Of a DNA stretch of 44,447 nucleotides, positions 8,892 through 29,261 are shown one piece after another (position 1 is the first letter of the stretch; every line of letters starts with the position of its first letter). Origin of the DNA: Acidobacteriaceae bacterium (GTDB lineage Bacteria; Acidobacteriota; Terriglobia; Terriglobales; Acidobacteriaceae); contig PKVZ01000061.1 in NCBI GenBank assembly GCA_003131635.1, forward strand, positions 50,031 through 94,477, written 5' to 3'. The position numbers and the translations under genes are program-made. The notes under the pieces were generated by a model. That model did no database searches. It saw nothing but the letters and a program-made list of their open reading frames with translations, and was not told the DNA's origin.

Positions 8892-8932
8892 GCTTGCCTC
8901 CGAGCCCGTATCAGGGGGTGCGGCAGTTTAAG

Positions 8933-11479
8933 ATGTGGCGCTTGCAGCAAATCGCCAGTATCGCGTGGGTCGTGATTTTCTTGGTGATGAATCTCTCGAA
9001 TAATTCGGCGGCCCAGTCGGGACCCGAGACTCGGGAACCCCCGCTCCTTCCGATGCCAGCTTCCCCGGGCACGTGGAACGCTCCCGGGGAGCGCGTCCTC
9101 GACCCGAGCTCTTCGGACCCACCTGCCAGCGGAGTTGGTTGGTTGAAGCGCTTGGCCGATGACCAGAAGGCGATCTGGAGCAGCCCGTTGCACCTTCGCC
9201 CGAGCGATGCAGAGTGGGCACTTCCGGCCCTCGGCGGCGCGGGAGTATTTCTGGCAAGCGATGCGTGGCTCTCCCGGCAGGTTCCTGCGGGCGAGATCGC
9301 GCGCAGCCGCCGTCTTTCGAATGAGGGCGCCTATTCTCTGGCGGGCGCTGCGGGTGGAATGTTCGTCTTCGGAAAGATCATGCATGACGACCACGCCGCC
9401 GAAACCGGATTCCTGGCCGGCGAGGCTGCGGTGAATGCGGCGGCTGTGGACTTCGCGCTCAAATCCATGTTCCAGAGGCAACGCCCTTACCAAGGTACGG
9501 GCGCGGGCCACTTTTTTTCCGGAGGCTCATCGTTTCCCTCCGAGCACGCCGCGGTTTCCTGGGCCATCGCGGGTGTGGTTGCGCACGAGTATTCCGGACC
9601 TCTAACCAAGCTGATTTCCTATGGACTCGCGACCGCGGTCACGGCGGCTCGGGTTACGGGCAAGGAACACTTTCCATCGGACGCCATCGTGGGCGGCGCG
9701 CTCGGCTATTTCATAGCGCAGCAGATTTACCTGCGGCGCCGCGATCCCGAGGTCAGCGAGGGCGCCTGGGGCGGTCTGCTCGAAACGAAACCAGACCAGG
9801 AAAAACTCCGGAACCCTCACGATATGGGATCGTCGTATGTCCCACTCGACAGCTGGGTGTATCCGTCGCTGGAGCGCTTGGCGGCTTTAGGCTACCTGTC
9901 CACCGCTTTTTTGGGAATTCGTCCCTGGACGCGCATGGAGTGCGCGCGTCTGCTCGAAGAGATGGATGAAGAGATGGATACGGATACGGATACGAATACG
10001 AATACGAATAAAGATGATCGCATGGGTTATCAGAACGATGGCCCCGGTAGAGAGGCGCAAAAGATCTATGCCGCTTTGCAGATTGAGTTCAGAGACGAGA
10101 CCGCCCGCCTGAACGGGGCCGCCAATCTGGACCTGCGTCTGGACTCGATTTACACGCGTTCGGTGGGCATTTCGGGCAAGCCGCTGCGGGACGGATTCCA
10201 CTTCGGACAAACCATCGTCAACGATTACGGACGGCCCTATGGCGAAGGATTCAATCAGGTAACCGGGCTGAGCGCGAGCGCCGTGGCCGGTGTGTTTTCG
10301 TTTTCCCTCCGTGGTGAGTATCAGCACGCTCCGGCAGTGCCTTCCGATCCACTCAGCGTGCTGCAAGCCACCGCCCAGGCGGACTACCTCGCCATCCCCG
10401 TTCCCGACGGATCCCCGACCATCAACCGGTTTCGTCTGATCGAGGGTTCCATCGGAGTTATCTTCCACGACCTCAAAGTATCGTTTGGCAGGCAGAATCT
10501 GTGGCTCGGTCCGGGGGAGAGCGGCCCTCTTCTTATGAGTGACAATGCCGAGCCCATCACCATGCTGCAGATCGACAACGTATCTCCATTCGAGTTTCCG
10601 CTGCTCTCCTATTTTCTAGGACCAGCCCGGATCGACTCCTTCATCGGGCAGCTTGCGGGACAGCTTTGGGTGTACAACCCATCGCCCGCAGTCGGACTTG
10701 ATCCCACTACCGACCCGAGCTTTCTGCTAGGACCGGGTTTCCGTCCGCAGCCCTTCATTCATGGCAACAAGATCGGCTTCCGGCCCACTCCGAACCTGGA
10801 GTTTGGCATGGGGGTGACGGCGATCTTCGGCGGACCTGGACTTCCGTTCACCTGGCACGAGTTTTTCCGAAGTTATTACGGCCACAATGTAAGCACGGCA
10901 ACCAATCCCGGCAAGCGGTTTTCGAGCGTCGATTTCACCTACCGGCTCCCCGGCTTGAGACGCTGGCTGACTTTCTACGCCGATTCGATGGTAGGGGATG
11001 AGATTTCACCGATCGGTTCGACCCGTCCCATGTTGAATCCCGGGTTGTACCTTCCGCAACTGCCCAAATTGCCCAAGCTGGAGTTGCGAGTGGAGGGATT
11101 CAAGGCCGAGCCCCGGCTGGGGACGATTTACTTCGACCGGCGGTATCGCTCCGGTTACACCAACGACGGAAATCTGATCGGCAGTTGGATCGGTCGGCAG
11201 GCGCAGGGCGGGCAAGCTTGGATCAAGTACTCGTTTACCGCGCGAAACAGCTTGCAACTCGGGTACCGGCACCAGGAAGTGGACAAGTTTCTGGCGGGCG
11301 GCGGACGCCTGAACGACTTCTCGGCAGAGGGCGAGTACAGAGTCGGTCCGCGAATGGCAGTTTCGGGGCGGGCGCAATATGAGCAGTGGGATTTTCCCGC
11401 GCTCTCCGGCCAGAAACAATCGAATCTAACGGCTGGAGTGCAGCTGACTTACTACCCCGGTTGGAAGTTGCGGAACTGA
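8933..11479 (+). CDS. PAP2-family phosphatase fused to Wzi-like capsule assembly barrel
   Basis: The 848-residue product has a signal peptide (MWRLQQIASIAWVVIFLVMN, cleaved near AAQ). The first half is a PAP2/vanadium-haloperoxidase-type phosphatase: KxxxxxxRP at Lys177-Arg184-Pro185, SFPSEH at 200-205 (the usual PSGH is PSEH) and Arg240...His246...Asp250. The second half, from about residue 300 (YVPLDSWVYPSLERLAALGY), is a Wzi-type capsule assembly region rich in amphipathic strands, predicted as an outer-membrane beta-barrel that anchors surface polysaccharide. PAP2 proteins often hydrolyse undecaprenyl diphosphate, so a role in lipid-carrier or phosphoryl processing near the exporter is possible but inferred. 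A DT/NT hexamer repeat sits between the halves. Upstream in-frame starts exist (TTG 8894); ATG 8933 fits the signal peptide. Confidence 0.88.
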   Translation: MWRLQQIASIAWVVIFLVMNLSNNSAAQSGPETREPPLLPMPASPGTWNAPGERVLDPSSSDPPASGVGWLKRLADDQKAIWSSPLHLRPSDAEWALPALGGAGVFLASDAWLSRQVPAGEIARSRRLSNEGAYSLAGAAGGMFVFGKIMHDDHAAETGFLAGEAAVNAAAVDFALKSMFQRQRPYQGTGAGHFFSGGSSFPSEHAAVSWAIAGVVAHEYSGPLTKLISYGLATAVTAARVTGKEHFPSDAIVGGALGYFIAQQIYLRRRDPEVSEGAWGGLLETKPDQEKLRNPHDMGSSYVPLDSWVYPSLERLAALGYLSTAFLGIRPWTRMECARLLEEMDEEMDTDTDTNTNTNKDDRMGYQNDGPGREAQKIYAALQIEFRDETARLNGAANLDLRLDSIYTRSVGISGKPLRDGFHFGQTIVNDYGRPYGEGFNQVTGLSASAVAGVFSFSLRGEYQHAPAVPSDPLSVLQATAQADYLAIPVPDGSPTINRFRLIEGSIGVIFHDLKVSFGRQNLWLGPGESGPLLMSDNAEPITMLQIDNVSPFEFPLLSYFLGPARIDSFIGQLAGQLWVYNPSPAVGLDPTTDPSFLLGPGFRPQPFIHGNKIGFRPTPNLEFGMGVTAIFGGPGLPFTWHEFFRSYYGHNVSTATNPGKRFSSVDFTYRLPGLRRWLTFYADSMVGDEISPIGSTRPMLNPGLYLPQLPKLPKLELRVEGFKAEPRLGTIYFDRRYRSGYTNDGNLIGSWIGRQAQGGQAWIKYSFTARNSLQLGYRHQEVDKFLAGGGRLNDFSAEGEYRVGPRMAVSGRAQYEQWDFPALSGQKQSNLTAGVQLTYYPGWKLRN
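9977..10012. repeat. in-frame hexanucleotide microsatellite within the PAP2-Wzi gene
   Basis: Six consecutive 6-base units run GATACG x3, AATACG x2 and AATAAA, encoding DTDTDTNTNTNK in the linker between the phosphatase and barrel halves. Unit gain or loss would preserve the frame and change only linker length. Confidence 0.85.
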
Positions 11480-21120: not shown

Positions 21121-22479
21121 ATGCGCATACTGATTCACGGCCTTAATTTTGCGCCGGAACTCGTGGGTTGCGGCAAGACCACCGGCGAGATGGCGGACTG
21201 GCTGGCCGCCCAAGGCCACGAGGTGCGGGTTGTCACCGCTCCTCCCTTCAACCCGGAGTGGAGGGTGGCGCCAGGGTTTTCCCCGTGGCGATACTCTCGC
21301 GAGGATTCCGTTCGGCACAGCCAGCCGCGAAAAGCCTTCCGGGAACTCGTAGCCACAGATTCGCGAAGCGGCTTGCGCCGTTCCTCCGAAGCCAGCGGCC
21401 AGCTGGCCGATCTGCCGGATTCGACGTGCGAAACCACGACCGGACGCCTGACCGTGCTCCGCTGCCCGCTGTGGGTTCCTCGGCAGCCCTCAGCCGCGAA
21501 GCGCATATTGCACCTGGTCAGCTTTGCCCTGGCGAGTTTTCCCGTAATGTTGCGGCAGATCCGCTGGCAGCCCGAGGTGGTGCTGGTTATGGAGCCTACG
21601 CTGTTTTGCGTGCCGGCGGCCTTGCTCACCGGCCGGCTTTGCGGGGCCAAGAGATGGCTGCACGTTCTGGATTTCGAAGTGGACGCGGGTTTCGAGCTGG
21701 GTCTTCTGAAGTCGAGGAGCCTGAGGCGTGCGCTCGGGTGGGCGGAAAAAAAATCCATGTCTAGTTTCGATCGGGTTTCGACGATCTCCGAGAAGATGCT
21801 GGCTAAGCTGGTACAAAAAGGGGTTGCGCCCTCCGCTTGTCTTTTTTTCCCGAACTGGGTGGATACGGACGCGATTTTCCCCCTGGAGAAGCCGAGCAGG
21901 TTCCGTACGGAACTGGATATTTCCCCAAACGATACAGTTGCCTTGTACGCCGGAACCATGGCCCGCAAGCAAGGGCTCGAAGTGTTGGCGGAAGCGGCTT
22001 GCCAGTTGGGTGGGCGCGCGAATTTGCGCTTCGTTTTTTGTGGCGACGGCCCAGGCAAGTCGATGCTCGCCAGGCTTACCAGCCATCTGCCCTATGTCCA
22101 GTGGATTCCGTTGCAACCTTTTGCCCGCCTCAACGACTTGCTCAATCTGGCCGATATTCATCTTTTGCCGCAGAAAGCGGATGCCGCCGACCTGGTCATG
22201 CCTTCCAAGCTGACCGGCATGCTGGCCAGCGGACGGCCGGTGGTAGCTACATCCCCGCCGGGCACTCAGCTTGCCCAGGCGGTCGAGGGCAGGGGACTGG
22301 TGGTCGCGCCGGGGAACGCTCGAGCCTTTGCCCGGGCGATCGAACAGCTGGCGGAGGACTCTGGGTTGCGGGAAAAGCTGGGAAGAAATGCCCGGCAATA
22401 TGCGCTTTCTGTTTTGGAAAAAGAGAGTGTCTTGTCCCGCCTTGACCGGGAGTTACTCTTTTTCGCAGCGGCGGGTTGA
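21121..22479 (+). CDS. WcaI-like GT4 glycosyltransferase with internal insertion
   Basis: A 452-residue GT-B enzyme resembling colanic-acid glycosyltransferase WcaI. The N-terminus is MRILIHGLNFAPELVGCGKT, followed by FNPEWRVAPGFSPWRY, RCPLWVPRQPSAAKRILHL, then donor-domain motifs ALYAGTMARKQGLEVL, FVFCGDGPGK, and PSKLTGMLASGRPVVAT. In the family, the WRY segment normally runs almost directly into the RCPLWVP segment; here about 45 low-similarity residues (about 60-107) intervene, rich in Ser/Arg and containing a 14-base DNA palindrome at 21396-21409. ATG 21121 is chosen because GGGGGGTGAG lies nine bases upstream; a GTG at 21112 is in frame. It ends in a TGATG overlap with the sugar-transferase gene. 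Confidence 0.88.
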   Translation: MRILIHGLNFAPELVGCGKTTGEMADWLAAQGHEVRVVTAPPFNPEWRVAPGFSPWRYSREDSVRHSQPRKAFRELVATDSRSGLRRSSEASGQLADLPDSTCETTTGRLTVLRCPLWVPRQPSAAKRILHLVSFALASFPVMLRQIRWQPEVVLVMEPTLFCVPAALLTGRLCGAKRWLHVLDFEVDAGFELGLLKSRSLRRALGWAEKKSMSSFDRVSTISEKMLAKLVQKGVAPSACLFFPNWVDTDAIFPLEKPSRFRTELDISPNDTVALYAGTMARKQGLEVLAEAACQLGGRANLRFVFCGDGPGKSMLARLTSHLPYVQWIPLQPFARLNDLLNLADIHLLPQKADAADLVMPSKLTGMLASGRPVVATSPPGTQLAQAVEGRGLVVAPGNARAFARAIEQLAEDSGLREKLGRNARQYALSVLEKESVLSRLDRELLFFAAAG

Positions 22480-23246
22480 TGGCGGGGAGAAATCACGGCC
22501 GGCTCGCGCCGGGTGCAACCGAACGAAATTCTTGTCAAGACGAAATCTTTACCATGATGCTTTGCAGATTAGAAGCGCGCTTGTCCACCGTCCCGCAGGC
22601 AGTCGATGACTCGACCGTGATTTTTTCCCCTTATTGGAAAAGCGCATTTCGTCCCGCAGTCAAGCGCGGGATCGATCTGGTTTGCGCCGGCTCGCTTCTG
22701 ATCTTACTTTCTCCGCTCTTTGTGGCTCTGGCGATCGCCATCAAAGCCAGTTCGCCGGGAGATTTATTTTACCGGTGGCGCGTGGTGGGACAGGGAGGCA
22801 GACCCCTCCTCAGCTACAAATTCAGGTCGATGGTCAGCAATGCCGATGAGCTGAAGGGGCAACTGGAGCCGGCCAACGAGATGCGTGGGCCCGTCTTCAA
22901 AATGACCCGCGACCCGCGGGTGACCGCGGCGGGAAAATGGATGCGGCGCTACAGCCTGGACGAACTGCCGCAACTTTACAGCGTGCTCAAGGGGGAGATG
23001 AGCCTGGTAGGCCCCCGTCCGCCGCTGCTCAGCGAATACCAGCACTTCACCGCCTATCAAAAGCAGAAGGTGTCGGTAAAACCTGGAATGACCGGTTTGT
23101 GGCAGGTCCAGGGCCGCAACCGGATCAACGATCTGGATGATTGGGTGCGCCTCGATCTCGAATATATCCGCCGCTGGTCGCTGTGGCTGGACACCAAGAT
23201 TCTGTGGCGCACTTTGGGGGTGGTGTTCACAGGTTCCGGCAAATAG
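22479..23246 (+). CDS. polyprenyl-phosphate sugar-1-phosphate transferase (EPS initiation)
   Basis: The 255-residue enzyme belongs to the bacterial sugar transferase (PNPT) family that starts repeat-unit synthesis by moving a sugar-1-phosphate onto undecaprenyl phosphate. It shows a membrane hairpin (GIDLVCAGSLLILLSPLFVA), the substrate motif YKFRSM (Lys114-Phe-Arg116), the catalytic Asp161-Glu162 in SLDELPQLYSVLKGEMS, then LVGPRPP and VKPGMTGLWQV. All expected residues are present. There is no N-terminal multi-helix or nucleotide-binding domain, so it is the short PglC/WbaP-C-terminal-like form. The ATG at 22479 overlaps the upstream TGA (TGATG); ATG 22554 would remove 25 unconserved residues. 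Confidence 0.92.
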   Translation: MAGRNHGRLAPGATERNSCQDEIFTMMLCRLEARLSTVPQAVDDSTVIFSPYWKSAFRPAVKRGIDLVCAGSLLILLSPLFVALAIAIKASSPGDLFYRWRVVGQGGRPLLSYKFRSMVSNADELKGQLEPANEMRGPVFKMTRDPRVTAAGKWMRRYSLDELPQLYSVLKGEMSLVGPRPPLLSEYQHFTAYQKQKVSVKPGMTGLWQVQGRNRINDLDDWVRLDLEYIRRWSLWLDTKILWRTLGVVFTGSGK

Positions 23247-23292
23247 ATTGCACCCAGTAAATTCGCAATCGAACAGGGAGCATTTTGAAATC

Positions 23293-24405
23293 ATGCGCGT
23301 TCTCATAACCGGTGGTGCGGGGTTCATTGGCGGGCACTTAGCCGACCGCTTTATTCGAGAGGGTTTCCGGGTGCGGATCCTCGACAGTCTCGAGCCCAGG
23401 GTCCATCCCCACGGCCGGCCTAACTACCTGCCGGCGGGGGCGGAGTTTGTTGAGGGCGACGTTACCGACCGCAGTGTTCTGCTGGGCGCCCTGCAGGGAG
23501 TCGACATCGTCTCCCACCAGGCGGCTTATCAGGACTACATGCCCGATTTTTCCCGCTTCCTGCAAGTCAACGCCGTGTCTACGGCGCTCTTGTTCGAACT
23601 CATCATCGGGCACCGCTTGCCGGTGAAAAAAGTCATCGTAGCCTCATCGCAGGCGGTGTATGGCGAAGGCCAGTACCGCTGTCTGGATCACGGCGACTTT
23701 CAGCCGCTGCCGCGTTCTCCCGGGCAATTGCAGCGCGGGAACTGGGAAGTTTCGTGTCCCTTATGCCCAGGTCCGGTTCAGGCTCTGGCACTCGAGGAGC
23801 GATGGCATAATCCCTATAACCAGTACGCTGTCTCCAAATTGGCGCAAGAGAAAACCGCTCTGGGACTGGGCTGGTTGCACGGCATTCCAACCGTGGCGCT
23901 GCGCTACTCCATCACCCAAGGCCGGAGGCAATCGCTGTACAACCACTACTCCGGAGTGTGCCGCATCTTCTGCACTCGCGCCCTGCAGCATCTTCCCCTG
24001 ATGCTCTACGAAGATGGACGGCAGACCCGCGACTTCGTGCATGTGGACGATGTGGTCGAGGCCAACATGCTGGTGCTCGAGAAAGAAGAGGCGAATGGCC
24101 AGGCGTTCAACGTCGGCGGCGGGTGCGCCACCACAATTCTCGAATATGCCCACCGCGTGCTTGGCCTGATTCCAAGCCTCGCGGGGATCGATATCTCATC
24201 CCAATACCGCCGCGGCGACAACCGCCACAGCGTTTCGAGTATCGACAAATTGAAGCGTCTGGGCTGGAAACCCCAACGCGGCATGGATGACATTCTCGGC
24301 GATTTTCTGGAGTGGGTGGAAAGCTCCGGCGGCATCCCTGCGAGCCTGTCAGACCCGGCCGATGAAATGCGGGCCGCCGGGGTTCTGCTCAGTGCGACGA
24401 ATTAG
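23293..24405 (+). CDS. NAD-dependent sugar epimerase, dTDP-L-rhamnose 4-epimerase-like
   Basis: A 370-residue extended SDR enzyme: MRVLITGGAGFIGGHLADRF for NAD, SSQAVYGEG, catalytic Tyr178-x3-Lys182 (YAVSK) and DGRQTRDFVHVDDVVEANM. DSLEPRVHPHGRP and the cysteine insertion with SCPLC (Cys155/Cys158) resemble WbiB-type dTDP-L-rhamnose 4-epimerases, which make dTDP-6-deoxy-L-talose. In those the insertion has two CxxC knuckles; here the first is reduced to a single Cys (RCLDHG), so zinc binding may be lost. ATG 23293 follows AGGGAG by 11 bases. No dTDP-rhamnose synthesis genes occur in the window, so the actual substrate is uncertain. Confidence 0.82.
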   Translation: MRVLITGGAGFIGGHLADRFIREGFRVRILDSLEPRVHPHGRPNYLPAGAEFVEGDVTDRSVLLGALQGVDIVSHQAAYQDYMPDFSRFLQVNAVSTALLFELIIGHRLPVKKVIVASSQAVYGEGQYRCLDHGDFQPLPRSPGQLQRGNWEVSCPLCPGPVQALALEERWHNPYNQYAVSKLAQEKTALGLGWLHGIPTVALRYSITQGRRQSLYNHYSGVCRIFCTRALQHLPLMLYEDGRQTRDFVHVDDVVEANMLVLEKEEANGQAFNVGGGCATTILEYAHRVLGLIPSLAGIDISSQYRRGDNRHSVSSIDKLKRLGWKPQRGMDDILGDFLEWVESSGGIPASLSDPADEMRAAGVLLSATN

Positions 24406-24480
24406 TTCTGGTTGCAATTCTCCATCGCTGAAACTGGCACAACCGTATCCGGCTCAACCGGGAGAAAAAACGAGAAACTC

Positions 24481-25134
24481 ATGACCAACACATTCGACGT
24501 TTCCTCCTATCTTGAAGAGTTATCCGCCACTATCCATCTTCTTCCGCTGCCGGCCATCGACCGGCTCGTCGGAATGTTCCTTCAGGTCTATCACAGCGGC
24601 CGGACCATCTTTTTTTTTGGCAATGGAGGCAGCGCGTCTCTGGCCTCGCACATGACCTGCGACCTTGGCAAGGGCACCGCGCCGGCCGCCGGCAAGCGGC
24701 TGCGCGCGGTCGCTCTTACCGACAATGTGGCTTTGATCACGGCTTGGGCGAACGATACCCGCTATGATCGCATCTTCGTCGAACAACTCGAAAATCTGCT
24801 CGCAGCCGGCGACGTCGCCTTCGCCATCAGCGCCAGCGGCAACTCCCCCAACATACTCGCCGCTCTGAGTTTTGCCCGCCAGGCCGGGGCGGTTACCGCC
24901 GGCATGACGGGCTTCCAGGGAGGACAAATGAAGTCGCTTTGCGATCTCTGTGTGGTGGTTCCCTCCGACAACATGCAGATCATCGAAGATCTTCATCTTT
25001 CGATCGCCCACTCCGTATTTCGCGTGCTGCGGCACGAGATTCAAGCGATGGACCACTCCCGCGCCACCATCGCTCTAGCCCAGCCCGTTTCCGGACACGC
25101 GCCCAGTTGCCTTCCAAGGTTAGCCGCGCAATAA
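24481..25134 (+). CDS. gmhA: D-sedoheptulose-7-phosphate isomerase (SIS domain)
   Basis: GmhA converts sedoheptulose 7-phosphate to D-glycero-D-manno-heptose 7-phosphate, the first step of activated-heptose synthesis. The 217-residue product has the SIS fold with FFFGNGGSASLASHMTCDL, TDNVALITAWAND, the phosphate loop AISASGNSPNIL and a C-terminal EDLHLSIAHSVFRVLR helix bearing the conserved His pair. ATG 24481 begins the usual N-terminal helix; the frame is open upstream to 24412 without conservation. Downstream genes supply a heptose kinase and a nucleotidyltransferase, supporting the GDP-heptose branch. It follows the epimerase gene by 75 bases. Confidence 0.9.
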   Translation: MTNTFDVSSYLEELSATIHLLPLPAIDRLVGMFLQVYHSGRTIFFFGNGGSASLASHMTCDLGKGTAPAAGKRLRAVALTDNVALITAWANDTRYDRIFVEQLENLLAAGDVAFAISASGNSPNILAALSFARQAGAVTAGMTGFQGGQMKSLCDLCVVVPSDNMQIIEDLHLSIAHSVFRVLRHEIQAMDHSRATIALAQPVSGHAPSCLPRLAAQ

Positions 25135-25192: not shown

Positions 25193-26656
25193 ATGAAATC
25201 ACAGCAACTTCGTAACCGGATCCTGGCCGCAGATCTGGCCTGGATTCCAGTGGCGCTGGCCGCCGAGCAAGCCTTGTGCTCCGGACGGCACTGCAGCCAC
25301 CTTCCGCTGGGGCCGTCCAATTTTGTGGTTTATGTCGGCTGCACGGTCTTCGTCTGGGTGCTGCTCTCGGAAAACCTGCATCTGGATGGGTTCCGCAGCG
25401 GCTGGCGGTTGCCCGCTCTGGTCTCGCATCTTCTGCTGGCGGTCGGCGTGCTGATGGTGCTTCTGCTCGCGGTCGGGAATGTCTCGGAGAGGTACGTGGG
25501 AAAGCTGACCCTGAGTGTCTTTTCCCTGTTTCTGCTGATTGGCTTCCTCGGCATTCGCGGGTTCGCCCTGCGCCGGGTATTGCAGCGCTACCGGACTGGA
25601 CAGGTCCACCGCGTTGTTATCCTGGGTTCTGACCGTTTGGCCACCGAACTGGCGGTGAAATTCACCCATCATCCTGAACTCTTGTGCCGGGTGATTGGCT
25701 TCTTGTGTCCGGGAGCGGATGTTCCAGCCACAGCACCCAATCGAGCCACGACTGCCGGTCCAGCCACCGTTTCCACGACGGACGTCATCGGCCTGTTACG
25801 CCGGCACCAGGTGGACGAACTGGTGATGGCCCATACTCCGGCTTCGAGCGAAATACTGAATCTCGTCGCGCTCTGCCGTCAACATGCCATCCGCGTCAGC
25901 CTGGTTCCCCAACCTTACGAACTTTATCTATCCCGTCCCAGCCTGCTGGACCTCGGCGGCCTGCCTTTACTCCAACTCGGAGAGATGCCGCCGGCTTCGG
26001 GGGGGCCCGGCAAACGCCTGCTGGATCTGGCGCTGGGTTCGTTTCTCGCCCTGGCCACGCTGCCCTTCCTTCTGGCCTGCGCCGCGGCTCTCCGCTGCAC
26101 CGCCGGACACGGCTTTCGTTGGGAAAGACGCATCGGCTGGCAAGGCGCGCAGTTTTCCATGCTGCGGCTCAACGTGGATCACAATCCGCGAAATGGTTCA
26201 GGTTTTGAGCGGATGCTGGTCCGGTTCAGCATTGCCGAACTGCCCCAACTTTGGAATGTGCTGCGCGGGGAAATGAGCCTGGTGGGTCCACGGCCGGAAG
26301 GACCGGAACGCGCCCAGCAGTATTCCGCCTGGCAGCAACAACGGCTCTCGGTAAAGCCGGGTATGACCGGGTTGGCCCAAGTGCACGGGCTGCGAGAGGA
26401 GCACGCCTCCGAGGACAAAACCCGGCACGATCTGCAATACATGTTGCATCCTTCTTTGTTGAAGGATCTCTCGCTTCTGATTGAGACGATCTGGACGCTG
26501 CTGCTTCGCTTGATAAAGCTGCCGAAGGGCGTCTTGGCCGGCGGTGACTACGAGGGCGCCGCGGCCCCTTCCATTTCATACTCTTCCTATTCCTCTACTC
26601 AGGCTTTCCCGGAGATGTTACCGCATGCTCATCGGACGCAGTCCGGTTCGGATTAG
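25193..26656 (+). CDS. long-form polyprenyl glycosylphosphotransferase homologue, catalytically degenerate
   Basis: The 487-residue protein has the WcaJ/WbaP-type layout. Four to five N-terminal helices (about 10-130) come first, then a Rossmann-like middle domain (VVILGSDRLATELAV; DVIGLLRRHQVDELVMA), a membrane hairpin near 285-310, and the PNPT domain ending with LVGPRPEGPE and VKPGMTGLAQVHGL. Catalytic positions are changed: the Asp-Glu dyad reads Ala348-Glu349 (FSIAELPQLW), and the KFR motif reads Arg325-Leu-Asn327. The same motifs are intact in the short transferase at 22479. It may be a regulatory or scaffold paralogue, or use altered chemistry; this is inference. Its end overlaps the hddA-like start by 32 bases. 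Confidence 0.85.
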   Translation: MKSQQLRNRILAADLAWIPVALAAEQALCSGRHCSHLPLGPSNFVVYVGCTVFVWVLLSENLHLDGFRSGWRLPALVSHLLLAVGVLMVLLLAVGNVSERYVGKLTLSVFSLFLLIGFLGIRGFALRRVLQRYRTGQVHRVVILGSDRLATELAVKFTHHPELLCRVIGFLCPGADVPATAPNRATTAGPATVSTTDVIGLLRRHQVDELVMAHTPASSEILNLVALCRQHAIRVSLVPQPYELYLSRPSLLDLGGLPLLQLGEMPPASGGPGKRLLDLALGSFLALATLPFLLACAAALRCTAGHGFRWERRIGWQGAQFSMLRLNVDHNPRNGSGFERMLVRFSIAELPQLWNVLRGEMSLVGPRPEGPERAQQYSAWQQQRLSVKPGMTGLAQVHGLREEHASEDKTRHDLQYMLHPSLLKDLSLLIETIWTLLLRLIKLPKGVLAGGDYEGAAAPSISYSSYSSTQAFPEMLPHAHRTQSGSD

Positions 26657-27716
26657 TTTTGGCGGAGGCGGCACCGATCTCCCTTCCTACTACGAGCAGT
26701 TTGGGGGCGCCGTTCTCAGCACTGCCATTGACAAGTACTTCTACACCATTCTGGGAAACCGTAGCGATGGCCGCATCCAGGTCATCTCTTCCGATCTTCG
26801 CCTGTTTGGCAACTGGAGTGACCTCACCGCCCTGCCCGCTCTGCCCGATAAAAGCAGTGGCCTGGAGATTCCTCTCGCGGTGCTCAAGGATCTCGGCGCT
26901 GACCTTGCCGCCGACCTCTTCCTGGCTTCCGAAATCCCTCCCGGCACCGGATTGGGATCCTCCGCCAGCGTTTGTGTGAATCTGTTGAAAGTGCTTACCA
27001 CCCATTTGCGTTGTCCATTGTCAAAGTACGATCTCGCGGAGCGGGCCTTCAACATCACGCGCTTTGGCCTGAAACGCCACGTGGGCAAGCAGGACGAATA
27101 TGCCGCTGCCTTCGGCGGCCTCAACTACATCCGCTTTAGCCGGGATGGAGCCACCCAAGTCGAGCCGCTGCAACTCGATCCCGGCGTGCTTTCCGCTCTG
27201 CAGTCCAATCTCATGCTGTTTTTTACCGGAGCTGCCCACCATTCCTGGGACATCCTTGCCGATCAGGAGAAATCCACTCGGCTGCCGGACGGACCCGCCG
27301 TGGAGGCGTTGCACCAGGTGAAAGAGGCTGCAGCCCTGATGAAAGAGGCTCTTCTCTGCGGCGATTTGGAACACTTCGGCCATCTCCTCGACGAGGCCTG
27401 GCAAGCAAAAAAACGCATATCCCAGCGCATTTCGAGCCCGCGCATCGACCAGCTCTACGACGTGGCGCGGGAGCACGGCGCGCTGGGCGGCAAAATTACC
27501 GGCGCCGGCGGCGGAGGATTTCTGCTGCTTTATTGCGAGCCTTCATTCCGGGCGGCGGTGCGCTCCGCGCTGCAGCGCGAGGGTGTGCAGGAGATGGCTT
27601 TTGCCTTCGACGGTCAGGGGGCTCATGTCATCGTCAACGATCCCTTTATCGATCACGACGAACACGCCGGCACGCGATGGACCTTTCTGCCTCTGTCATC
27701 GGCGGCAACGGTTTGA
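26625..27716 (+). CDS. hddA: GHMP kinase, D-glycero-D-manno-heptose 7-phosphate kinase-like
   Basis: A 363-residue GHMP-superfamily sugar kinase. N-terminal GRSPVRISFGGGGTDLPSYY is the HddA/FKP-type signature, PPGTGLGSSASVCVNLL is the GHMP ATP-binding motif, and KITGAGGGGFLLLY is the C-terminal motif 3. HddA phosphorylates heptose 7-phosphate at C1 with alpha configuration for GDP-heptose. ATG 26625 is chosen because it starts directly before the signature and GGAG lies ten bases upstream; it overlaps the end of the preceding gene by 32 bases. Neighbouring gmhA and a nucleotidyltransferase support the assignment over fucose/galactose kinases. Confidence 0.87.
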   Translation: MLIGRSPVRISFGGGGTDLPSYYEQFGGAVLSTAIDKYFYTILGNRSDGRIQVISSDLRLFGNWSDLTALPALPDKSSGLEIPLAVLKDLGADLAADLFLASEIPPGTGLGSSASVCVNLLKVLTTHLRCPLSKYDLAERAFNITRFGLKRHVGKQDEYAAAFGGLNYIRFSRDGATQVEPLQLDPGVLSALQSNLMLFFTGAAHHSWDILADQEKSTRLPDGPAVEALHQVKEAAALMKEALLCGDLEHFGHLLDEAWQAKKRISQRISSPRIDQLYDVAREHGALGGKITGAGGGGFLLLYCEPSFRAAVRSALQREGVQEMAFAFDGQGAHVIVNDPFIDHDEHAGTRWTFLPLSSAATV

Positions 27717-27750
27717 TTTCCCTTCTGCCATTCGATCGCGGGAGCTCACC

Positions 27751-28545
27751 TTGAAAGCCTTTTTGCTGGCTGGAGGACACGGCACGCGCTTGCGGCCTCT
27801 GACTGACTCCATCGCCAAGTGCCTGGTGCCGATCCAGGGCAGGCCTCTGCTCGATATCTGGCTTGATCTGTGCGCTCACTCCGGGATTACAGACGTCCTC
27901 ATTAACCTGCACGCTCGCTCGCAAGACATCGAGCGGCATCTCCAGCGTAAGAGCTCGCCGGTGAGCGTTCGTCTAGTCCATGAAGAACAATTGCTCGGCT
28001 CGGCGGGCACGCTCGCCGCCAACCGGAGCTGGATCGGTTCTGATCCCGCGTTCTGGATCCTTTATTCCGACGTTCTCACCAACACGAATTTGCGGCGCAT
28101 GAGCGAATTCCATTCCGCTCACCGCGCCTTGGCGACCCTTGGTCTTTACCAGGTGCCCGATCCTTCGCGCTGCGGCGTCGCCATCACAGACCACCGCGGG
28201 GTCATCGTCGACTTCGAAGAAAAGCCGCAAACCCCGCGCAGTAATTGGGTCTTCTCCGGGCTCATGGTGGCGGGTCCCGGTCTTTTCGATTTGATCCCAC
28301 CCTGCATTCCCGCCGATATCGCATTCCACGTGCTGCCGCGGCTGCTCGGAAAAATGCGCGCCTTTCCGATCACAGACTACTTACTCGACATCGGTACTCT
28401 GCCGAACTACGAAAGGGCGCAGATCACATGGCCCGGCACAGAAGGCAGTTTGTGTGTACCGGAGTTGAACGCAAATCCGGTCCCGAGGCTTCTTCGAGAG
28501 TCTGGCCGTCAAGCACGCGGCGTCTCACGCGGAGAAGATTCATGA
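27751..28545 (+). CDS. hddC: sugar-1-phosphate nucleotidyltransferase, heptose-1-P guanylyltransferase-like
   Basis: The 264-residue enzyme has the nucleotidyltransferase signature LLAGGHGTRLRPLTDSIAKC near its N-terminus, then WILYSDVLTN (Mg-binding Asp) and VVDFEEKP-like IVDFEEKPQTPR. Size without a C-terminal beta-helix fits HddC/RmlA-like short enzymes. The TTG at 27751 is the best start: GGGAG ends six bases upstream and the signature follows at once. No ATG or GTG precedes the signature in a suitable place. Position after gmhA and hddA suggests formation of GDP-D-glycero-alpha-D-manno-heptose. A mannose-1-phosphate guanylyltransferase role is the main alternative. The stop overlaps the next ATG (ATGA). 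Confidence 0.83.
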   Translation: MKAFLLAGGHGTRLRPLTDSIAKCLVPIQGRPLLDIWLDLCAHSGITDVLINLHARSQDIERHLQRKSSPVSVRLVHEEQLLGSAGTLAANRSWIGSDPAFWILYSDVLTNTNLRRMSEFHSAHRALATLGLYQVPDPSRCGVAITDHRGVIVDFEEKPQTPRSNWVFSGLMVAGPGLFDLIPPCIPADIAFHVLPRLLGKMRAFPITDYLLDIGTLPNYERAQITWPGTEGSLCVPELNANPVPRLLRESGRQARGVSRGEDS

Positions 28546-29261
28546 GTCTCGGACAATTGCGTGGCGTCATCTTCGACATGGATGGCGTCCTGGTGGACAG
28601 TCATGCCGTGCATCGCAAGGCTTGGAGTCTGTTTTTCCAGACGCTGGCACGCGAAGTGTCCGAATCCGAGCTGGATTTCATTCTGGACGGGCGCAAACGC
28701 AGCGAGATCCTGCGGCACTTTCTGGGAGATTATCCCGACCCGGAACTCGAGGAATTCGGCAGGCGCAAGGATTGCATCTTCCGGCGAATGCGGCTCGATG
28801 TGGCCGCGGTTCCGGGGGCGGTCCGTATCGTGCGCCACCTTTATCGCGATGGCATCGCTTTAGCTCTGGCTACTTCCGCCGGCCGCAGTCGTGCCCGCTC
28901 GACCTTGCTCGATCTGGGATTGCTGGATTGCTTCCAACAGATCGTGACCGGAGAAGATGTGCTTTTGGGCAAACCGGACGCCGCGATTTACCGGCTGGCC
29001 TACAGCCGCATGGGGATTGAGCCTGAGCACCTGTTGGCGGTGGAAGATGCGATTTCAGGAATTCGGGCGGCGGTGGGTGCTGGCTTGAGTTGTGTGGGAG
29101 TAGCCTCGCACGAGACGCCCGAGAATCTTATCGCCGCCGGCGCGTCTCACGTGGTGCGGAACTTCGAGGCTGTTACCACCCACCAACTGAAACGCATCTT
29201 GCCGGAACGTGATCGCGATCTTGGGTCTCGCCCGGCTGCCGCCGCGTCGGCTAAAGCCTAA
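28542..29261 (+). CDS. HAD-superfamily phosphatase (beta-phosphoglucomutase-like)
   Basis: A 239-residue HAD subfamily IA hydrolase. Motif I is FDMDGVLVDSHAVHRKAW (Asp12 nucleophile, Asp14 acid/base), motif II ALATSAGRSRA, motif III Lys in LLGKPDAAIY, and motif IV VEDAISGIRAAVGAG. A four-helix C1 cap lies between residues about 18 and 85. The ATG overlaps the hddC-like TGA, so it is translationally coupled to the heptose module. That module lacks a recognisable GmhB, the C7 phosphatase of heptose 1,7-bisphosphate; this enzyme may fill that step, although GmhB belongs to a different HAD subclass. Sugar-phosphate phosphatase or mutase are alternatives. It is the last gene of the EPS run. Confidence 0.85.
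   Translation: MSLGQLRGVIFDMDGVLVDSHAVHRKAWSLFFQTLAREVSESELDFILDGRKRSEILRHFLGDYPDPELEEFGRRKDCIFRRMRLDVAAVPGAVRIVRHLYRDGIALALATSAGRSRARSTLLDLGLLDCFQQIVTGEDVLLGKPDAAIYRLAYSRMGIEPEHLLAVEDAISGIRAAVGAGLSCVGVASHETPENLIAAGASHVVRNFEAVTTHQLKRILPERDRDLGSRPAAAASAKA

Follow-up and report, generated by a model that had tools for sequence, protein, structure and literature searches.

A large monotopic PGT homologue without the catalytic aspartate is conserved beside GDP-heptose genes in soil Acidobacteria: a putative non-catalytic pathway component

The locus described here raises the question of what a protein built like a phosphoglycosyl transferase (PGT) might do once its catalytic aspartate is missing, and whether such a loss concerns one strain or a whole lineage. 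The window, that is, the whole stretch of 44,447 nucleotides from an Acidobacteriaceae bacterium (contig PKVZ01000061.1) that was analyzed, encodes a protein with the architecture of a large monotopic PGT, hereafter referred to as the pseudo-PGT. A profile search gave the domain order as a putative N-terminal membrane region, then PF13727, then PF02397. The gene, its domains and the positions of interest are as follows:

25193–26656, + strand: pseudo-PGT, large monotopic PGT architecture, 487 amino acids, from a stop-free open frame and domain profiles
25430–25909, + strand: PF13727 (CoA_binding_3) domain, residues 80–239, E 1e-8
26012–26503, + strand: PF02397 (Bac_transf) sugar-transferase domain, residues 274–437, E 1e-37
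26117–26125, + strand: Arg309-Trp310-Glu311; the aromatic residue at 43 is changed to Arg or Lys in 29/38 family members, and Gln45 to Glu in 36/38
26165–26173, + strand: Arg325-Leu326-Asn327 where Lys-Phe-Arg is expected, from the sequence and the family alignment
26234–26239, + strand: Ala348-Glu349 where the catalytic Asp-Glu dyad is expected

In good agreement with the preliminary description, the frame runs full length without a stop, residues 346–353 read SIAELPQL and thereby contain the Ala348-Glu349 dyad, Arg-Leu-Asn replaces KFR at residues 325–327, and the LPQLW, MSLVGPRP and VKPGMTG motifs are all kept. The PF02397 match reached 129.9 bits against a curated cut-off of 27, and the protein scored below the whole-protein NCBIfam cut-offs of WcaJ (190 of 411 bits), WbaP (128 of 403 bits) and EPS_sugtrans (230 of 296 bits). 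Four other PF02397 proteins are encoded in the same genome, including the short PGT of the cluster, and all have an intact Asp-Glu. A structure prediction made from three sequences had a pLDDT of 35 and a pTM of 0.22 and was discarded.

Catalytic and donor-site residues were compared between 38 family members, the window included and all from the same class (probably Terriglobia, Acidobacteriota), and 57 other PGTs whose selection relied on an ELPQ-type motif rather than on the Asp. PglC numbering was mapped by hand from an alignment with PDB 8e37; one further member (L117), which reads LTEVPQ, falls outside the count of 38 owing to the motif filter. In monotopic PGTs, D93 and E94 carry out catalysis and K59, R88 and R111 orient the substrate (PMC12802240), R88 and R145 are needed for the binding of undecaprenyl phosphate (UndP) (PMC10519829), and modelling predicts that Phe43, Met63 and Arg79 of PglC hold uracil (PMC12550135). 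The catalytic Asp (D93) was present in 0/38 family members versus 57/57 other PGTs, a contrast not due to chance; in the family its position is occupied by Thr (25), Ser (11), Ala (1) or Arg (1). In all 38 members K59 is replaced by Arg, R61 by Asn, Asp, His or Ala, and R88 is gone, while these three positions are invariant in the other PGTs. Neither M63 nor the aromatic residue at 43 is kept in any member, and R79 is kept in two and gone in 36. The donor loop, from K59 to D93, spans 16–30 residues (mode 22) in the family versus 36–58 in the other PGTs. Overall, these losses occur in 38/38 members (36/38 for R79) versus 0 of 56–57 other PGTs, and the family departs from active PGTs in the Asp-Glu dyad, in K59/R88 orientation, and in the uracil contacts together with the donor loop. 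We infer that the pseudo-PGT has lost the ability to transfer phosphosugar from UDP-sugars. The earlier call of a pseudoenzyme stands, with the substitutions kept family-wide. Nucleotide sensing, which had also been proposed, is doubtful for the PGT domain because the residues predicted to hold uracil are gone, but the PF13727 domain could still bind nucleotides, as the equivalent domain of WbaP is reported to bind uridine nucleotides (PMC10942596).

Among 101 related genomes searched, members of the same genus or family gave full-length homologues with 81, 75, 66, 51 and 42–47% identity, and the order and class gave remoter ones. A family profile (A1) made from 16 homologues was run on sampled genomes of the class (399) and of the phylum (396), and its scores split cleanly, with at least 320 bits for the family and at most 244 bits for ordinary PGTs in the class or 269 bits elsewhere. 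The single intermediate score, 311 bits, belonged to genome G718. The family was present in 23 of the 399 sampled class genomes. The sole relative matched in a search of genome contigs was G036, and no plasmid record gave a match that reached 80% query coverage; what matched there were stretches of ordinary PGTs. Two genomes (G413 and G159) each carry two pseudo-PGT-hddA pairs, from separate branches of the tree. At L056:8314–8640 and in L136 (G029), all that is left of the pseudo-PGT is its C-terminal ~109 residues, upstream of an intact hddA; this remnant lies mid-contig and may reflect loss or an assembly break.

In a maximum-likelihood tree of 68 proteins, 40 family rows were on one side of a branch with an SH-aLRT of 99, and the sister of this clade was a large PGT (L133) from G718, a member of another class of the phylum (SH-aLRT 95). 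L133 keeps D93, E94, K59, R61 and R88, and its operon includes hddA, hddC, gmhA, an epimerase and a short PGT. Whether orthologues keep the substitutions, the check that the preliminary description had proposed, can thus be answered: Asp is missing in every member counted, and the sole intact relative found is the sister outside the clade. The midpoint root of the tree is a drawing choice, and the direction of change, a loss of Asp, was read not from the root but from the universal presence of Asp in the other PGTs. The simplest reading of these sequences would be one old loss, in a PGT already within a heptose operon. The frame of L133 (5459–8152) has 898 codons, extends upstream of the PGT and may hold a fused or misread part. 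A second, more degenerate large PGT without Asp-Glu, ARLPALWNVLRQDLSLVGPRP, was observed at L135:10440–11891 (G234), adjoining a divergent hddA (292 bits), gmhA and an intact short PGT; an AU test of this protein as part of the same loss gave p 0.147.

The window has GCC at codon 348, where its three nearest relatives (G036, G026 and G003) have TCC, and Ala348 was seen in the window only, the nearest relatives having Ser. With these codons, Ala348 is most likely a later change, from Ser, in a lineage already without Asp. The GAC-to-GCC path suggested earlier was rejected, as TCC to GCC is the preferred one.

The dN/dS ratio (Nei-Gojobori method) was 0.10–0.17 in the PGT domain of the pseudo-PGT and 0.08–0.22 in its N-terminal part, near the values of 0.05–0.15 obtained for hddA. 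The sole loose part was the linker at residues 438–470, with 0.35–0.72 where computable. Because dN/dS is this low and near the level of hddA, the gene is not decaying but under purifying selection.

The window carries a Wzx/Wzy-type polysaccharide cluster with SLBB/Poly_export, PAP2-Wzi, Wzz-like and flippase-like genes and glycosyltransferases. A single frame at 8894–11479 combines a PAP2 phosphatase (residues 178–280) with a Wzi capsule-assembly domain (residues 427–844). The pseudo-PGT gene lies between a gmhA-like gene and hddA, followed by an hddC-like gene and a HAD phosphatase gene, with the kinase and nucleotidyltransferase names resting on profile similarity below curated cut-offs:

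22476–23246, + strand: short PGT, intact (SLDELPQL and KFRSM), likely the initiating enzyme of the cluster
23137–24405, + strand: NAD-dependent epimerase/dehydratase, by profile
24412–25134, + strand: gmhA-like SIS-domain sedoheptulose-7-phosphate isomerase, by profile
26625–27716, + strand: hddA, D-glycero-D-manno-heptose 7-phosphate kinase-like, by profile; its ATG lies inside the pseudo-PGT gene, with a 32-nt overlap
26625–26656, + strand: overlap of pseudo-PGT and hddA, −32 or −17 nt in most orthologues
27583–28545, + strand: hddC-like sugar-1-phosphate nucleotidyltransferase, domain from ~27754; the true start is probably downstream of the ORF start
28245–29261, + strand: HAD phosphatase, presumed heptose-bisphosphate phosphatase, domain from ~28560

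Neighborhoods were counted where the flanks exceeded 5 kb upstream and 4 kb downstream, which gave 31 family loci, L133 not included. hddA was directly downstream of the pseudo-PGT in 31/31 loci, and within 8 kb we found hddC in 25, a short PGT in 25, an epimerase in 23, gmhA in 22 and a HAD phosphatase in 22. One family locus at a contig edge (L052) has no hddA on the available stretch. The C-terminal tail AHRTQSGSD is conserved because the overlap with hddA forces its coding, and it was rejected as a protein motif. In L042:9355–10776 (G057) the pseudo-PGT stops early, at a TAG inside the hddA overlap, leaving the tail AHRT. In L122 and L132, hddA is split over two overlapping frames, by frameshift or assembly error.

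Of the 399 class genomes, 24 had operon-type hddA (at least 321 bits), and 23 of these 24, but no other genome, had the pseudo-PGT; these counts may fall a few copies short, as scoring covered only the best few candidates of each genome. Among the same 399 genomes, no pseudo-PGT was found in those having only remoter HddA homologues (at most 288 bits). Distances between pairs of pseudo-PGTs correlated well with those of HddA (rho 0.84, 38 loci) and HddC (0.78), less with those of HAD (0.55) and GmhA (0.48) and hardly with those of the short PGT (0.16); these correlations carry no p-value owing to the non-independence of the pairs. The short PGT seems to be exchangeable, the pseudo-PGT-hddA-hddC core not. 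Adjacency and co-divergence show shared pathway and inheritance, not physical contact.

Taken together, we give a probability of roughly 0.5 to the reading that the protein is a conserved pseudo-PGT that may act at the membrane to scaffold or regulate the synthesis or use of GDP-heptose. A large monotopic PGT ancestor would have given rise to a clade-wide pseudoenzyme family whose members would reside in the inner membrane and partner with the GDP-D-glycero-D-manno-heptose module (HddA, HddC). There the pseudo-PGT might hold the soluble HddA and HddC where the glycan is assembled, or adjust their activity, and the intact short PGT would start the polysaccharide. The pseudo-PGT probably helps the heptose pathway rather than starting the chain. 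The counter-case to a role as module partner is genome G369 (L134), which has the same type of hddA-hddC-HAD operon and a short PGT without the pseudo-PGT.

An unlikely alternative is that the protein remains an enzyme whose pocket was remodelled and whose chemistry changed, taking, for example, GDP-heptose or its lipid-linked product as substrate in a direct displacement without the Asp intermediate. Glu349 of the dyad, the R145 equivalent (Arg401), Asp413 and Tyr416 are kept in 38/38 family members and the GPRP Arg in 36/38, and new residues are fixed or nearly so, namely Glu311 (36/38), Arg325 (38/38), Asn327 (32/38) and an acidic residue at 329 (29/38). Since so many pocket residues are kept and Glu311 is fixed, another ligand or chemistry is possible. 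The GDP-heptose genes are always alongside, and the intact sister L133 sits in the same kind of operon. It is conceivable, at similarly low odds, that the UDP-sugar pocket was rebuilt (Arg/Lys309, Glu311, Arg325, Asn327, Asp/Glu329) for GDP-heptose or heptose phosphate, which would give a heptose-handling protein or enzyme without a covalent Asp intermediate. However, the nucleophile position varies between Ser, Thr, Ala and Arg, so that there is no fixed substitute nucleophile there, and the Arg88 absent from the whole family is needed for UndP-dependent PglC activity (PMC10519829).

The preliminary description had put the short PGT forward as the partner and EPS priming as the role. Its observation that this PGT is intact was borne out by the ORF listed above, and the proposal itself, a regulatory subunit of the short PGT acting by dimerization or allostery as a priming scaffold, is tentative at best, about on a par with the remodelled enzyme. 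In its favor are the intact short PGT within 8 kb in 25/31 loci, the dimerization of large PGTs via their N-terminal region (WbaP, PMC10942596) and the control of large PGTs by partners (EpsZ-EpsW, PMC12802240). Against it, none lies nearby in 6/31 loci, where the pseudo-PGT-hddA pair persists, and the low rho with the short PGT indicates no co-divergence, in contrast to the always adjacent HddA. This lack of co-divergence led us to downgrade a physical pairing of the two PGTs, and both the partner and the pathway are probably other than those first proposed.

It is improbable that the gene is a relic kept solely through translational coupling to hddA. In most main-clade members the two genes do overlap, by 32 or 17 nt, but basal members have no overlap and keep the sequence despite a gap of 24 to 269 nt, and the strong form of this explanation is refuted by dN/dS, with purifying selection on the protein outside the linker. 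Recent strain-specific decay or a sequencing error, to which the uniqueness of Ala348 itself might point, is ruled out for practical purposes by the class-wide absence of Asp within a single clade, as one old loss.

To our knowledge, no family of monotopic PGTs that are catalytically dead has been described. None turned up in a limited search of open PMC papers, although an earlier description is possible. Across a group of soil Acidobacteria the catalytic centre has been lost and the protein is still strongly conserved, and its gene nearly always adjoins that of the kinase for a heptose, an unusual sugar of seven carbons. With its single old loss, intact sister, strong constraint and near-obligatory partner gene, this family is a clean test case for how a membrane enzyme may turn into a non-catalytic pathway component, and the finding points to an unrecognized component of GDP-heptose glycan synthesis. 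Annotation by PF02397 alone would label the pseudo-PGTs as active sugar transferases.

Among known systems, the pseudo-PGT resembles WbaP and WcaJ (TIGR03022, TIGR03023, TIGR03025; PDB 8t53, 9s7s) in its domain order, in the GPRP and PGMTGL motifs and in the re-entrant helix signature DX12P, for which Pro was found at D+13 in 31/38 family members and the Asp168 equivalent in 38/38; the family profile aligns with WbaP over profile positions 37–441 (E 6e-44). Unlike these enzymes, it is without the nucleophile Asp, Arg88, Arg79, Met63 and Arg61, its donor loop is shortened, it is encoded in a heptose operon and it falls below the curated NCBIfam cut-offs. The small monotopic PGT PglC (PDB 8e37, 8g1n) aligns with the PF02397 domain over nearly its whole length, but keeps D93, E94, K59, R88 and a mobile donor loop. 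The large PGT of G718 is the nearest relative outside the clade and likewise adjoins hddA, hddC, gmhA and a short PGT, but it belongs to another class and retains all five of the catalytic and donor-site residues named for it above. In Myxococcus, EpsW is a response regulator and, unlike the pseudo-PGT, no PGT homologue, and EpsZ is catalytically intact, but EpsZ-EpsW offers a precedent for a non-catalytic protein partner controlling a large PGT (PMC12802240).
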